Source: Glutamicibacter ardleyensis (GTDB lineage Bacteria; Actinomycetota; Actinomycetes; Actinomycetales; Micrococcaceae). From it: a DNA stretch of 64,000 nt. Shown in pieces: positions 12,508-17,087 of this stretch. Each line of letters opens with the position of its first letter. Position 1 is the first letter of the stretch. The stretch lies in assembly GCF_014644555.1 (NCBI RefSeq), contig NZ_BMKX01000006.1, positions 124,001-188,000 of the forward strand, read 5' to 3'. Below the pieces are notes generated by a model. The model ran no database searches and was not told the DNA's origin. It was given only the letters and a program-made list of their open reading frames with translations. Position numbers and translations under genes: made by a program.

Positions 12508-12513
12508 AGCCTA
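12508..12513 (-). promoter_or_regulatory. Candidate -10 box for leaderless degV transcript
   Basis: TAGGCT on the minus strand overlaps the leuS stop codon (TAG) and lies exactly 6 bases before the degV ATG. This is the spacing of leaderless actinobacterial genes. A -35 box was not convincing. Confidence 0.4.
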
Positions 12514-15000
12514 CGGTGCCGGAACCACATTCACGAGCTTCGGCGCACGGACGATCACTTTCAGCGGCTCCTTGCCATCGAGCATGCGGATCACCGTTTC
12601 GTGAGCCAGAGCCTGCGCACGCAGATCGTCCTCGGAAATGTCCAGCGGAACTTCTAAGCGCGCGCGGACCTTGCCCTTGATCTGCACCACGGCGGTGACG
12701 GTGTCATCAACCAGCAACGACTCGTCAACCTGCGGCCAGGCGCTATTTACGACGCTTGGCTCGTAGCCCAGCTGGGACCACATATCTTCGGCGGTGTATG
12801 GCGCAAACATGCTCAGCAGCTGCGCGGTGACCGTCGCCGCCTCGCGTACCGCAGGGTCACTTGCGCCGGCACCGGAATCGATGGTTTTACGCGCCGCGTT
12901 GACCAATTCCATGGTCTTGGCGATCACCACGTTAAACTTGCCCGAGTCCAGCAGCTGAGCGGCCTCGTGCACGGTGCGGTGAGTGACCTGACGCAAGGAC
13001 TTCTCGCCGGTGGTGTAATCCACGCCCTGTGCGCTTTGCACGTCCTGGGCGATACGCCAGGCGCGCGCCAAGAACTTCTGCGAGCCCGATGGGGACACAT
13101 CGGCCCAGTCCACGTCGTCCTCCGGCGGGGAGGCGAAGATCATCGTCAGACGCACCGCGTCCACACCAAACTTGTCCAGCTGCTCGCCCAAGTCAACACC
13201 GTTGCCCAGCGACTTGCTCATCGCCTTGCCACCGTTGAGCACCTGGCCCTGGTTCAGCAGCGCGCTAAATGGTTCGTCCACGTCGATCAAGCCCAGATCA
13301 AAAATGACCTTGGTGAAGAAGCGCGAGTAGAGCAGGTGCAAAATCGCGTGCTCCACGCCGCCGACGTACTGGCCTACCGGCATCCAATCGCGCACGGCCT
13401 GCGGGTCAAAAGGACCCTCGGTGTAGTGCGGGGAAACAAAACGCAGGAAGTACCAGGAGGAATCGACAAAGGTATCCATGGTGTCGGTGTCACGCTTGGC
13501 GGCGCCACCACACTTCGGGCAGTCCACGTTGACCCACTCTTCGACGGCAGCCAGCGGACTGGTGCCCTTCGGAGCGAGCTGCTCGCCGCGCAGGTTATCT
13601 GGCAGGCGTACCGGTAGCTGGTCATCGGGAACCGGGACCTCACCGCAGTCGGCGCAGTGAATGATCGGGATCGGGGTACCCCAGAAGCGCTGGCGGGAGA
13701 GCAGCCAGTCGCGTAGCCGGTAGTTGATCGTGTGCTCACCGGTGCCAGCGGCCTCAACAATCTCGATCGCCTTCGCGACGGCCTCGGTCTTGGTCAAACC
13801 GGAGAGCTCACCGGAGTTGATCAGTTGGCCCTCGCCGGTGGTCGCGGTTCCGGAAACTGCCGGATCCTCTTCACCGGTTTCGACGACCACGCGCACCGGC
13901 AGCTCAAAGGTGCGAGCAAAGTCCAAGTCACGCTGGTCGTGCGCGGGCACGGCCATAATTGCACCGGTACCGTAATCGGCCAGCACATAGTCCGCCGCCC
14001 AGACCGGCAGCTTCTCGCCAGAGAGTGGATTGATCGCGTAACGACCCAAGAACACGCCGGTCTTCTCACGTTCCGAAGACTGACGTTCGATCTCGGAGAG
14101 CGCTTTAACCTGCTCCTGGTATTCTTCCAGGGCGGCGCGGTGCTCATCGGTGACCAGCTCGCCGGCCAGCGCGGCGTCGGCGGCAACAACCATGAAGGTC
14201 GCACCGTACAAGGTGTCCGGACGGGTGGTGAAGACCGGGATCTTCACTTCTTCCAACTGATCCTGCGCGGTGATGCCGAAGGTCACCTGGGCGCCCTCGG
14301 AACGGCCGATCCAGTTCTTCTGCATCAGCAACACGCGCTCAGGCCAGTGACCCTTGAGCCCGTCCATATCTTCCAGCAGACGATCCGCGTAATCGGTGAT
14401 CTTGAAGTACCACTGGTTCAGGCTCTTCTTGGTCACCGCGGTGCCACAACGCTCACAGGCACCGTTAACTACCTGCTCATTAGCCAACACGGTCTGGTCC
14501 GTCGGGCACCAGTTCACCGGGTGGTCCTTGCGGTAGGCCAAGCCCTTTTCGTAAAACTTATTAAACAGCCACTGGGTCCAGCGGTAGTATTCCGGATCCG
14601 AGGTGTGCAACCGGCGATCCCAGTCGGCGGAGATCGCGTAACGCTTGAAGCTCTCCGCCTGGGTGTCAATGTTTTTGTAGGTCCACTCCGCCGGGTGCGC
14701 ATTGCGCTTAATAGCGGCGTTTTCCGCCGGCAGGCCGAAGGAATCCCAGCCGATCGGATGCATCACGTCATAGCCACGCAACCGCCAGTAACGCGACACC
14801 ACATCGCCCATAGCAAAAGCCTCGGCGTGACCCATGTGCAGGTCACCGGAGGGGTACGGGAACATATCCAGCACATAGCGACGCTCGCGGCTGCCGTCAT
14901 CGGCGGGCTTGAACACTTCAAGTTCATCCCATACCGGTAGCCACTTGGACTCGAGGTCCTTAAAATCGTAGGTTCTGGGTTCGTTCGTCGATGATGTCAC
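12511..15000 (-). CDS. leuS: Leucyl-tRNA synthetase
   Basis: 829 residues from the GTG at 15000 ([17 protein letters not shown]), chosen because GAGAAGAG lies 5 bases upstream. The open frame continues in phase to 15087, but that extension starts in the loop of the leader terminator. The class I signature HMGH is in '[18 protein letters not shown]' and the KMSKS motif appears as '[10 protein letters not shown]'. A CP1 editing domain lies between them. The enzyme charges tRNA-Leu. The leader upstream carries a short leucine-containing reading frame and a terminator, indicating attenuation control. Confidence 0.97.
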
Positions 15001-15066
15001 TGAGCTCTTCTCACACACTTGCGGAAAAATTTCCTGACGGAAAACTTGGTTCGGGTCCAGACACAA

Positions 15067-15094
15067 CAAAAGCCCCCAAATCACCACTCGGGGG
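15067..15094 (-). terminator. Terminator in the leuS leader (attenuator)
   Basis: On the minus strand CCCCCGAG (15094-15087), loop TGGTGA, and TTTGGGGG (15080-15073) form 8 pairs including two G-U, followed by CTTTTGTTGT. It sits about 70 bases before the leuS start and just after the leader frame, so it can stop leuS transcription early. CCACT of the preceding hairpin could pair with AGTGG inside this one, giving a possible antiterminator. Confidence 0.65.
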
Positions 15095-15095
15095 T

Positions 15096-15110
15096 ACGGC
15101 CAGTGGCCGT
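15096..15110 (-). other. Hairpin preceding the leuS attenuator terminator
   Basis: Perfect 6-pair stem ACGGCC-ACT-GGCCGT between the leader-peptide stop codon and the terminator. It is in the position of a pause or 1:2 stem in a classical attenuator. Confidence 0.55.
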
Positions 15111-15112
15111 GC

Positions 15113-15139
15113 TTAGCCTAGGTTGCGCTGAAAATGCAT
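15113..15139 (-). CDS. Putative leuS leader peptide (MHFQRNLG)
   Basis: Nine codons including the stop: M-H-F-Q-R-N-L-G. The ATG lies exactly 6 bases after a TAGAAT -10 box, as in leaderless actinobacterial mRNAs. It contains a single leucine codon, CTA, the one usually rarest in GC-rich actinobacteria. Ribosome stalling at CTA when charged tRNA-Leu is scarce would hold the ribosome next to the following hairpin and could free leuS from termination. The mechanism is inference; attenuators before leuS have been predicted in some Streptomyces. Confidence 0.55.
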
Positions 15140-15145
15140 ACGCCG

Positions 15146-15151
15146 ATTCTA
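15146..15151 (-). promoter_or_regulatory. -10 box of the leuS leader transcript
   Basis: TAGAAT on the minus strand, a good TAnnnT match, ending 6 bases before the leader-peptide ATG at 15139. The -35 region is poor. Confidence 0.55.
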
Positions 15152-15317
15152 TCGCAGTTCAACTCGCAACGGCGCATCCGTGAAATGCTCGCTCCACCAC
15201 CAGGCCAATGTCATCGCTCACAACCCTCGCGCCGGTGTCCGATGAATTCGCGCACGCTTATCCACAGCCGGCACCCACCATGGCGCCACACCTCGCTACC
15301 GGGTCAAGAATAGCTTC

Positions 15318-17087
15318 ATGAACACGCCAGCGCTCATCGCCACCTTGCACACCCTGTGCGCCGCCCCGCTTCAGCTCGGGACGCAGCTCACCGGTGACAT
15401 GATGCTGCGTTTAGGCTCCCTGACCCTGGCCCTGTTCACCGCCATTGGCCAGCTAGTGCATCAGCATCGCGATCCACGCCTCGTGCTTGCCTACTGCGAC
15501 CTCGTGGAAAAATTCGCCCAGCAGATCCACCACGAACAACTGGCCACCGCGCTTGATGCGGAGCTCAGCGGCGCACACGCGCTGAGCCTTGAAAGCTTCG
15601 ATCAGTTGCGCGCCGGCACCTGCATTCTGGAGGGTGAACCGCAACTCGCTGTGGGCCGAACCTGTTACAAATCTGCCGGGGACTTGCTGGCCGCATGGTT
15701 AGGACTGAACTATTTCGAGGCACAACGGCGCATCGACGACGCCCACCTGCTCATCGGCCGGCGCACCGCCCAGGGCGAGTCTTGTGAACCACGCATGCCC
15801 CAGCTGGCCAGGCTCTATGCCGACTGCGGCGCAAACCGACGCAGCATCACGGTCACCGCCCGCAGACTTGAAAAACTCGAACCCAAAGACACCACCTTCG
15901 ACGGCACACCGGCGCAGCTCACCGCCAGGGACACCGACGGGCAACTCTTAGAGACCCACGCCGCACGCGCCTTAGCGCAGCTTGGTCCCAATGCCGCCCG
16001 CAAGGAGATCAGTACCCGGATCGGGATCTACAAGGAACTGCACTGCGAAAAACAACCACCGGCGCTGGGCCTATTCATCGGCCCGGTCATCGACGGCGTT
16101 CATGAATTCACCCTGCGCACCTTGGCCGCCCACGCTCAGGTAATCCGTTCGATCCGCGTGCAATCCGCAGACTGGCGCACCCAAGCGGGCAAGGCCGCAC
16201 GTCACGCAACCGCAGAGCCTGCCGCTTTCGTTCCTGATCCGTCGCCAGCAACCAAAGCGCAGCAGCCAGTTGCGCATCCCGCGGCAACGCCCAGCACCCC
16301 AACATGGTTACAGCCCGAGACCCCGATGCCCGCATGGGCTAAGCCGGCGGACAAGCAATCTGAAGCCGATGGCACCCCGAACTGCACCACGAAGCCCGAA
16401 CCAACGGGCAATCACGAAGAGACGGTGACTTCCGAGCTGCGCGCACTTAACGCCTTCATGGCCATCCTCACCTCACCTGCCAGCGGAGGCAAAATCAAAC
16501 CAGTCATTCCACGCATCTTTGTTTACATGTGGCTAAGTGACCTACAGAATCTCGCCGAAGCCCACGCCGTCACCTCAAATGGGGTGCACTTACCGCCTGG
16601 AGAACTTCGACGAACGTTAGCCGAAGCCAACATCATTCCGGTTGTCCTAGGCGGCAACAGCCAACCACTAGATCTAGGTCGATCCAGGCGCTATCACGAG
16701 GGGTACGTCAGGGCGGCAGTGTTAGCCCGAGATCGCGGCTGCATCGTGCCCGACTGCACTACACCGCCAGATCACGTAGAAATTGATCACTATCAACGCT
16801 CGTGGGCCGACGGTGGTACTACCAGCGTGCAGTCCGGGGCAGGATTGTGTCCCGATGGGCACCACAGTCGCCACGTGGATCAAATTAGAATCGTCGACGT
16901 CGATGGCCTCCCCCACGTGATCCTGCCAGCGCATCTTGATCCTGAGCAAAAACCTCGGCGCAACACCTATTGGGGAGCCCTGCAATTAGGAGATGCGCCC
17001 GATCATGAGGCCGCACCTGTAGCTCCACCCGATCCACCTGGTTCAACTGATCCACCCGGTTCACCCGGTTCACCCGAGGAAAGTTAA
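15318..17087 (+). CDS. DUF222 / HNH endonuclease domain protein (13E12-repeat type)
   Basis: 589 residues. An N-terminal DUF222 helical region is followed by a Pro/Ala-rich low-complexity linker (about 290-365). The C-terminal HNH nuclease core has 'RDRGCIVPDC', 'VEIDHYQRSWADGG' and 'LCPDGHHSRH'. Two C-x4-C style pairs would hold zinc and the HNH residues are intact. The tail repeats DPPGS/PGSP, encoded by imperfect 9-base repeats near 17028-17075. Such genes are multicopy in Mycobacterium (13E12 family) and Micrococcales; their role is unknown. It is flanked by the leuS leader and a terminator, and is the most accessory-looking gene in the first third. Confidence 0.85.
   Translation: MNTPALIATLHTLCAAPLQLGTQLTGDMMLRLGSLTLALFTAIGQLVHQHRDPRLVLAYCDLVEKFAQQIHHEQLATALDAELSGAHALSLESFDQLRAGTCILEGEPQLAVGRTCYKSAGDLLAAWLGLNYFEAQRRIDDAHLLIGRRTAQGESCEPRMPQLARLYADCGANRRSITVTARRLEKLEPKDTTFDGTPAQLTARDTDGQLLETHAARALAQLGPNAARKEISTRIGIYKELHCEKQPPALGLFIGPVIDGVHEFTLRTLAAHAQVIRSIRVQSADWRTQAGKAARHATAEPAAFVPDPSPATKAQQPVAHPAATPSTPTWLQPETPMPAWAKPADKQSEADGTPNCTTKPEPTGNHEETVTSELRALNAFMAILTSPASGGKIKPVIPRIFVYMWLSDLQNLAEAHAVTSNGVHLPPGELRRTLAEANIIPVVLGGNSQPLDLGRSRRYHEGYVRAAVLARDRGCIVPDCTTPPDHVEIDHYQRSWADGGTTSVQSGAGLCPDGHHSRHVDQIRIVDVDGLPHVILPAHLDPEQKPRRNTYWGALQLGDAPDHEAAPVAPPDPPGSTDPPGSPGSPEES

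Follow-up and report, generated by a model that had tools for sequence, protein, structure and literature searches.

The leucyl-tRNA synthetase gene of Glutamicibacter ardleyensis is preceded by a short element that is probably the Glutamicibacter form of a leaderless LeuL-type leader controlling leuS by premature termination. The window, meaning the whole stretch of 64,000 nt that was analysed, has at this place the layout that defines the grouping: upstream of leuS, a short frame with a Leu codon stands directly before a first hairpin (hairpin 1) and a stem resembling a terminator. The original prediction had proposed a leader peptide and a terminator hairpin ahead of leuS, of the kind predicted in Streptomyces, and conservation, that of the Leu codon included, supports this. 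The parts of the element are:

15146..15151, minus strand: -10-like box TAGAAT, 6 nt upstream of the leader ATG (sequence)
15145-15140, minus strand: spacer CGGCGT, from the box to the ATG (sequence)
15113..15139, minus strand: leader frame MHFQRNLG* (sequence and conservation), starting at the expected +1, probably leaderless
15119..15121, minus strand: CTA, codon 7 and sole Leu codon of the frame, the proposed stall codon (conservation)
15096..15110, minus strand: hairpin 1, ACGGCC-ACT-GGCCGT, 6 pairs (sequence, fold, covariation of the homologous hairpin, linker counts)
15073..15094, minus strand: terminator-like hairpin (CCCCCGAGU...AUUUGGGGG) (sequence and fold)
15068..15071, minus strand: T run TTTT, after one C (sequence)
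15062..15067, minus strand: GTTGTG, tentative partner of leader CGCAAC (15122-15127) in the read-through RNA (minimum-energy fold)
12511..15000, minus strand: leuS, leucyl-tRNA synthetase, 829 residues from the GTG at 15000 (NCBIfam TIGR00396 leuS_bact, 978 bits, cut-off 548)

On the minus strand the frame reads ATG CAT TTT CAG CGC AAC CTA GGC, from the ATG at 15139-15137 to the TAA at 15115-15113. The box, the 6-nt spacing, the ATG, the peptide MHFQRNLG and CTA as its only Leu codon can all be read there as described beforehand. The same is true of the 6-pair hairpin and of the terminator stem with CTTTT before leuS; the GC-rich stem (arms 15094-15086 and 15081-15073) has 8-9 pairs when G-U is counted, and it is separated from hairpin 1 by a gap of 1 nt. 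The leuS gene, expected about 70 bases downstream, appears to start with the GTG at 15000, 68 nt past the end of the T run, and a longer listed frame opens at an upstream GTG. CTA had been called rare. It is uncommon but not the rarest Leu codon, with 83 of 1307 Leu codons against 47 for TTA (window ORFs of at least 300 aa with third-position GC above 0.6, ORFs at 0.6 or less being excluded). The fold of the window leader only mildly beats shuffles (z -1.72, 9 of 200 shuffles equally good), so the case for this leader rests on conservation and not on folding energy. Rfam models, T-box included, gave no match in the whole window at the gathering score and none in 14900-15250 at E up to 1. In six relatives searched with Rfam at E up to 0.1 the sole match was a tRNA in L152, which ARAGORN did not confirm. 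The divergent neighbour of leuS (15318-17087, plus strand) is a 589-aa frame whose only match, to DUF222, stays below threshold (20.4 bits against a cut-off of 24.4).

Within the genus, 18 genomes were sampled, the window's own among them. The frame and its CTA, whose conservation was the check named with the original prediction, are kept in 17 of the 18, together with the -10-like box TAGAAT, the 6-nt spacing, the length of eight codons and the place of CTA at codon 7. Across the 16 Glutamicibacter sequences that were profiled (L017 and L018 excluded) CTA is invariant, while codons 2-6 and 8 vary. Identity in this set is 90% from -18 to -1 and 87% in the frame, compared with 49-59% in the flanks, the stretch from -100 to -19 likewise lying at 49-59%. 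The leader of L017 is MKPQ*, without a Leu codon, and its two hairpins are still there by eye; to judge from its sequence, this genome has undergone a natural loss of the sensor. L018 keeps CTA at codon 7, reading CTA CTC TAA, and hairpin 1 is absent from its fold. Six Glutamicibacter loci (two of them read on the wrong strand) yielded no candidate when scanned in a simple way for a branched-chain leader ahead of ilvB.

The layout extends to other genera of the Micrococcaceae. The survey covered 98 leuS upstreams, from the 18 genus genomes and 80 named loci, seven of which (L031-L037) are apparently genus genomes entering a second time. The layout was recognised in 72 of the 98 by a lenient picker; this picker ranked by Leu count and by a length of eight codons and is biased accordingly, and it missed L044, an R1 match (see below) at 73 bits. 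Exactly eight codons occur in 46 of its 49 picks outside Glutamicibacter, a count to be read with the picker's preference for Leu and for eight codons. The description of the leader as unusually compact is therefore apt for its few Leu codons and not for its length, which is usual in the family. Codon 7 of these 46 is CTT in 43, CTA in two and CCT in one, that is, Leu in 45, and the -10-like box lies 6 nt from the start in 45 of the 49 picks and 7 nt in the other four. A fixed rule (TANNNT, 6-7 nt, ATG or GTG, exactly eight codons with Leu at codon 7, then CCCC...GGGG...T) holds for 62 of 91 leuS upstreams, 17 of 18 in Glutamicibacter and 45 of 73 elsewhere, and for none of 1820 dinucleotide shuffles of the same 91 upstreams. 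Neither the picker nor R1 (E up to 1) found the leader at loci of Kocuria, Rothia, Nesterenkonia, Yaniella, Micrococcus and some others. A contig titled Sporosarcina (L071, NZ_JADHDY010000020.1) carries a Micrococcaceae-type leuS with its leader and is probably a mislabelled or mixed assembly.

Covariation supports hairpin 1. In the other genera hairpin 1 has double-sided changes in five of ten pairs, and four of the five pairs beside the stop codon are invariant, which is uninformative either way. The covariation score of the two-hairpin structure is reached by none of 500 shuffles, and the number of pairs with double changes by 7 of 500; further pair types in the same test are not above shuffles (304 of 500). 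Slid versions of the structure score far lower. The homologous terminator stem is paired in all cells of A2, with six of its seven pairs never varying.

The reach of the element beyond the family was followed with R1, a covariance model of 16 Micrococcaceae leaders, none from Glutamicibacter, whose calibration is rough. R1 matches 132 of 245 family genomes, once in each, the family being the one to which its training sequences belong. It matches 126 of 394 genomes of the class, spread over 49 of 138 genera (E up to 0.05), and 16 of 246 genomes in a phylum sample (E up to 0.001), four of these lying outside the class, in four families, and one of the four being placed before leuA. Among the Glutamicibacter sources R1 reaches 15-21 bits (E 0.02-0.73) in 10 of 18, with the window match at the leader itself (15060-15139), and finds nothing in the other eight at E up to 1. 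A test of 117 R1-match loci returned a leuS N-terminal match for 100, ilvB for six (three places) and neither for 11, some places being counted twice and some of the last class, to which L215 and L230 (see below) belong, lying at contig ends or having little sequence. The leader stands no more than 300 nt before the leuS start in 34 of 35 loci (L111-L145).

The common form is a leaderless-looking frame M/V-R-x-x-L-L-L, with CTT as the last Leu codon in 126 of 138 leaders outside Glutamicibacter. A run of at least two Leu codons is usual and not defining, as single-Leu leaders occur outside the genus too (L042, L154). Four R1 matches (L148, L150, L152, L156) encode MRAVRLLLSEPR, which is letter for letter the published LeuL2 of S. 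lividans. R1 also matches before ilvB (L207, L209, L214), citramalate synthase (L215) and leuA (L230). In L207 codons for I, L and V take the place of the Leu run, and in L215, by eye, four Ile codons do so (IIIIT*, start codon not found). One assembly (G454) has two different leuS genes, each with a leader (L210 and L211); with an estimated contamination of 2%, a mixture is possible.

A merged set of 155 leaders (150 distinct, species possibly entering twice) combines 66 picks, from which six picked named Glutamicibacter copies among L031-L037 are left out, with 89 of 95 R1 matches. L144, L171, L179, L184, L189 and L202 were dropped for a missing start, Leu codon or anchor. Setting aside L018, where hairpin 1 is absent, gives 154 leaders. 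Hairpin 1 spans 15 to 69 nt in these, yet the linker between it and the terminator stays short: 0 nt in 85, 1 nt in 61, 2 nt in six, and 3 nt and 6 nt in one each, so that 152 have 0-2 nt. As R1 itself contains both hairpins, the counts were repeated on the picks alone, with the same outcome (0 nt in 23, 1 nt in 38, 2 nt in three and 3 nt in one of 65; 0-2 nt in 64).

The position of a ribosome relative to hairpin 1 can be computed if its leading edge is set 12 nt past the first base of the A-site codon, an assumption drawn from general toeprint knowledge. Where at least three Leu codons are adjacent, a ribosome on the first of them would leave hairpin 1 entirely uncovered in 111 of 112 leaders; at the stop codon it would cover at least five pairs in all 154. 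Over the full set of 154, shorter runs included, a ribosome on the first Leu codon leaves every pair uncovered in 113 leaders and covers at least five pairs in ten. The picks alone, which R1 did not choose, give the same result (39 of 39 at the first Leu, 65 of 65 at the stop). In most leaders (129 of 154) 4-5 nt separate the Leu codon from hairpin 1, and in the 16 Glutamicibacter leaders with the hairpin the distance is 8 nt. Because hairpin 1 begins that far on, a stall at CTA covers two of its six pairs and leaves four free, and a ribosome at the stop covers all six. This placement of hairpin 1 one codon (3 nt) further on is what would be expected of codon 7 as the working sensor, and it is the best argument that CTA is in use. 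A hairpin shift that preserves the geometry is no rule for all reduced leaders.

The following course of events would account for this arrangement. Transcription would start at or beside the leader ATG, as suggested by the -10 spacing and by the published start of the Streptomyces homologue (leaderless by RNA-seq for S. lividans LeuL2 in the available text of PMC8079986). The identity of the LeuL2 peptide, which ties the window element to a described leader, is the best support for this start, and the leaderless frame of the original prediction stands as probable, given also the constant 6-7 nt from the -10-like box. A ribosome would load on the 5′ ATG and read the eight codons, as the conservation of the frame implies. 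With charged tRNA-Leu it would arrive at the stop codon with its leading edge, by the computed geometry, over all six pairs of hairpin 1, and RNA polymerase would then make the terminator stem and stop. When the tRNA-Leu that reads CTA is uncharged, the ribosome would wait at codon 7 with four of the six pairs available; hairpin 1 would form flush with the terminator and more polymerases would enter leuS. The direction, with more leuS on stalling, is presumed from the role of leuS.

The last step would use no strand common to hairpin 1 and the terminator. The favoured guess is a hindrance in the RNA exit channel, where a stable hairpin standing 0-2 nt from the base of the terminator would make the latter harder to complete. 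Extended to the whole group, the proposal is of a phylum-wide leucine attenuator free of a competing antiterminator, where a ribosome-gated, covarying hairpin 0-2 nt from the terminator sterically blocks its completion, and where Glutamicibacter has the minimal form with one CTA and the hairpin shifted by one codon. This wider proposal is tentative and, as a whole, doubtful. Adjacent hairpins are counted as terminators in the accessible part of PMC8355165, which stands against the steric reading, as does the fact that calculations of secondary structure are unable to reveal a steric effect, and fewer control codons mean lower sensitivity in the theory given in the available portion of PMC1183508, which counts against a sensor with a single CTA.

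The original prediction had instead placed the switch in an antiterminator, with CCACT of hairpin 1 (15106-15102) pairing to AGTGG of the terminator (15088-15084). The complementarity is correct in the window. The proposed pairing was nevertheless rejected: the loop bases of hairpin 1 vary by species (CCAAT in L002, CCATT in L003, CCGTT in L004, CCTGC in L011), although G-U pairs might, by eye, still allow CCATT and CCGTT to pair, and the 5′ arm of the terminator is little sequestered in relatives. Sequestration was measured, on secondary structure only, as pairing of the terminator 5′ arm with upstream RNA before the 3′ arm is made. The same script gave 0.83 with the ribosome stalled and 0.00 with it at the stop for E. 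coli trpL, and 0.51 and 0.00 for leuL. The actinobacterial leaders run opposite to E. coli, with means of 0.036 at the first Leu, 0.174 at the last Leu and 0.245 at the stop. At face value this modelled pattern would favour termination during stalling; reversed polarity, with leuS falling on stalling, is unlikely.

Trp-type attenuation through CCACT:AGTGG, or through any other antiterminator sharing a strand with the terminator, is very unlikely on these values. An intrinsic terminator does lie between the leader frame and the gene as judged from sequence and fold, and the window leader (L001) itself has a sequestration of 0.32 at CTA vs 0.07 at the stop. At CTA the value is 0.22 in L009 and L010, which have 0.20 at the stop, and no more than 0.15 in any of the remaining 13 Glutamicibacter leaders. 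Over the whole set, a classical strand-sharing antiterminator is scarce: the stall-minus-stop difference exceeds 0.3 in the classical direction in two of 154 leaders (seven with the last Leu codon), compared with 47 in the reverse direction, and with the ribosome on the first Leu none exceeds 0.5 classically. Judged against the positive controls trpL and leuL, no strand-sharing antiterminator formed on stalling is seen as a feature of these leaders. A pseudoknot between the hairpin 1 loop and the terminator arm was likewise rejected, as 441 of 1000 permutations were as good (60 of 148 distinct cases, with loops of at least 6 nt), which puts loop-terminator complementarity at chance. The equilibrium probability of the terminator was discarded as a measure; it is uninformative because trpL and leuL also give 0.94-0.97 at every ribosome position. 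With regard to a pause-hairpin idea, TG occurs 10-11 nt past hairpin 1 in 58 of 154 leaders, a count that has no control, and falls inside the terminator loop.

It is unlikely that the Glutamicibacter leader is a decaying relic, in which the terminator is constitutive or weak and the single CTA no longer regulates. Such decay would fit the reduction of the Leu run to one codon, the lost frame of L017, the missing hairpin 1 of L018 and the weak R1 scores in the genus, and several control codons are favoured by the theory in the available portion of PMC1183508. It fits poorly with the retention of CTA in all 16 profiled sequences among variable neighbours, and with a hairpin lying 3 nt further on, such that a stall at codon 7 leaves most of it free.

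Quite unlikely, too, is a control acting after termination, in which leader codons pair with the sequence past the T run (GTTGTGTCTG here) and affect how the read-through RNA is translated or how stable it is, in loose resemblance to the LEU element of leuA. The pairing appears in minimum-energy folds of Glutamicibacter leaders. Cognate segments beat permuted ones in 147 distinct leaders (0 of 1000 permutations) and in 66 others that lie outside an approximate Micrococcaceae group (1 of 1000), larger tests that mix groups of differing base composition; no significant effect is seen in 68 leaders of Micrococcaceae (119 of 1000) or in 13 of Glutamicibacter (451 of 1000). A sequence of the type TGTCCGG (TGTCCGG, TGCCCGG or TGTCTGG) stands just past the T run in 89 of 155 leaders and could pair with leader codons. 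Premature termination gated by the ribosome at hairpin 1 remains the preferred reading.

Part of this is already known: leaderless Leu leaders stand before leuS in Streptomyces, and CUA is a sensitive control codon in Salmonella, according to the available text of the papers cited here for each. The leuS leaders in print, so far as the accessible parts of PMC1262725 and PMC8079986 go, come from three Streptomyces species. The available portions of PMC3896937, PMC9413887 and PMC11995493 do not mention leuS leaders, and those of PMC4833913, PMC2965389 and PMC5784534 do not have leuS. As far as the searches can tell, the literature searched, which covers few subscription papers, does not report that the element is spread over the phylum, that Micrococcaceae keep a fixed register of eight codons, that a form with one CTA has its hairpin shifted, or that a strand-sharing antiterminator is nearly absent. 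The layout is far wider than three Streptomyces species. If the proposal is true, the element offers a case in which one can test how a leaderless frame of eight codons senses tRNA, how control codons are naturally reduced to one, and how attenuation proceeds when its switching step is other than a simple exchange of strands.

Leaderless polycysteine short frames before mycobacterial cysteine operons, described by Canestrari in 2020, reportedly act as amino-acid sensors. They are like the window leader in being leaderless short frames with this role. Their control is at the level of translation in the accessible part of PMC13236596, unlike that proposed for the window leader. The leu leader of Salmonella and E. 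coli shares with the window leader a CUA control codon before a leucine gene. It is not known to be leaderless, and E. coli leuL, with four CTA codons, 28 residues and a strand-sharing antiterminator, is unlike the window leader. A change of CUA to CUG lowered the sensitivity of the Salmonella leader, as reported in the available text of PMC1183508. The attenuators that PMC1262725, in the part available, predicts for leuS of S. coelicolor and S. avermitilis share with the window leader the Leu leader frame and the terminator before leuS; an antiterminator hairpin is drawn for them, whereas a strand-sharing one is found in only two of 154 leaders here (seven with the last Leu codon). LeuL2 of S. 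lividans, as presented in the available text of PMC8079986, has the same arrangement as the window leader: leuS is preceded by a leaderless Leu leader, after which come a hairpin and a U stretch. It differs in having three adjacent Leu codons and 12 residues, where the window leader has one CTA, 8 residues and a hairpin beginning 8 nt past the Leu codon.
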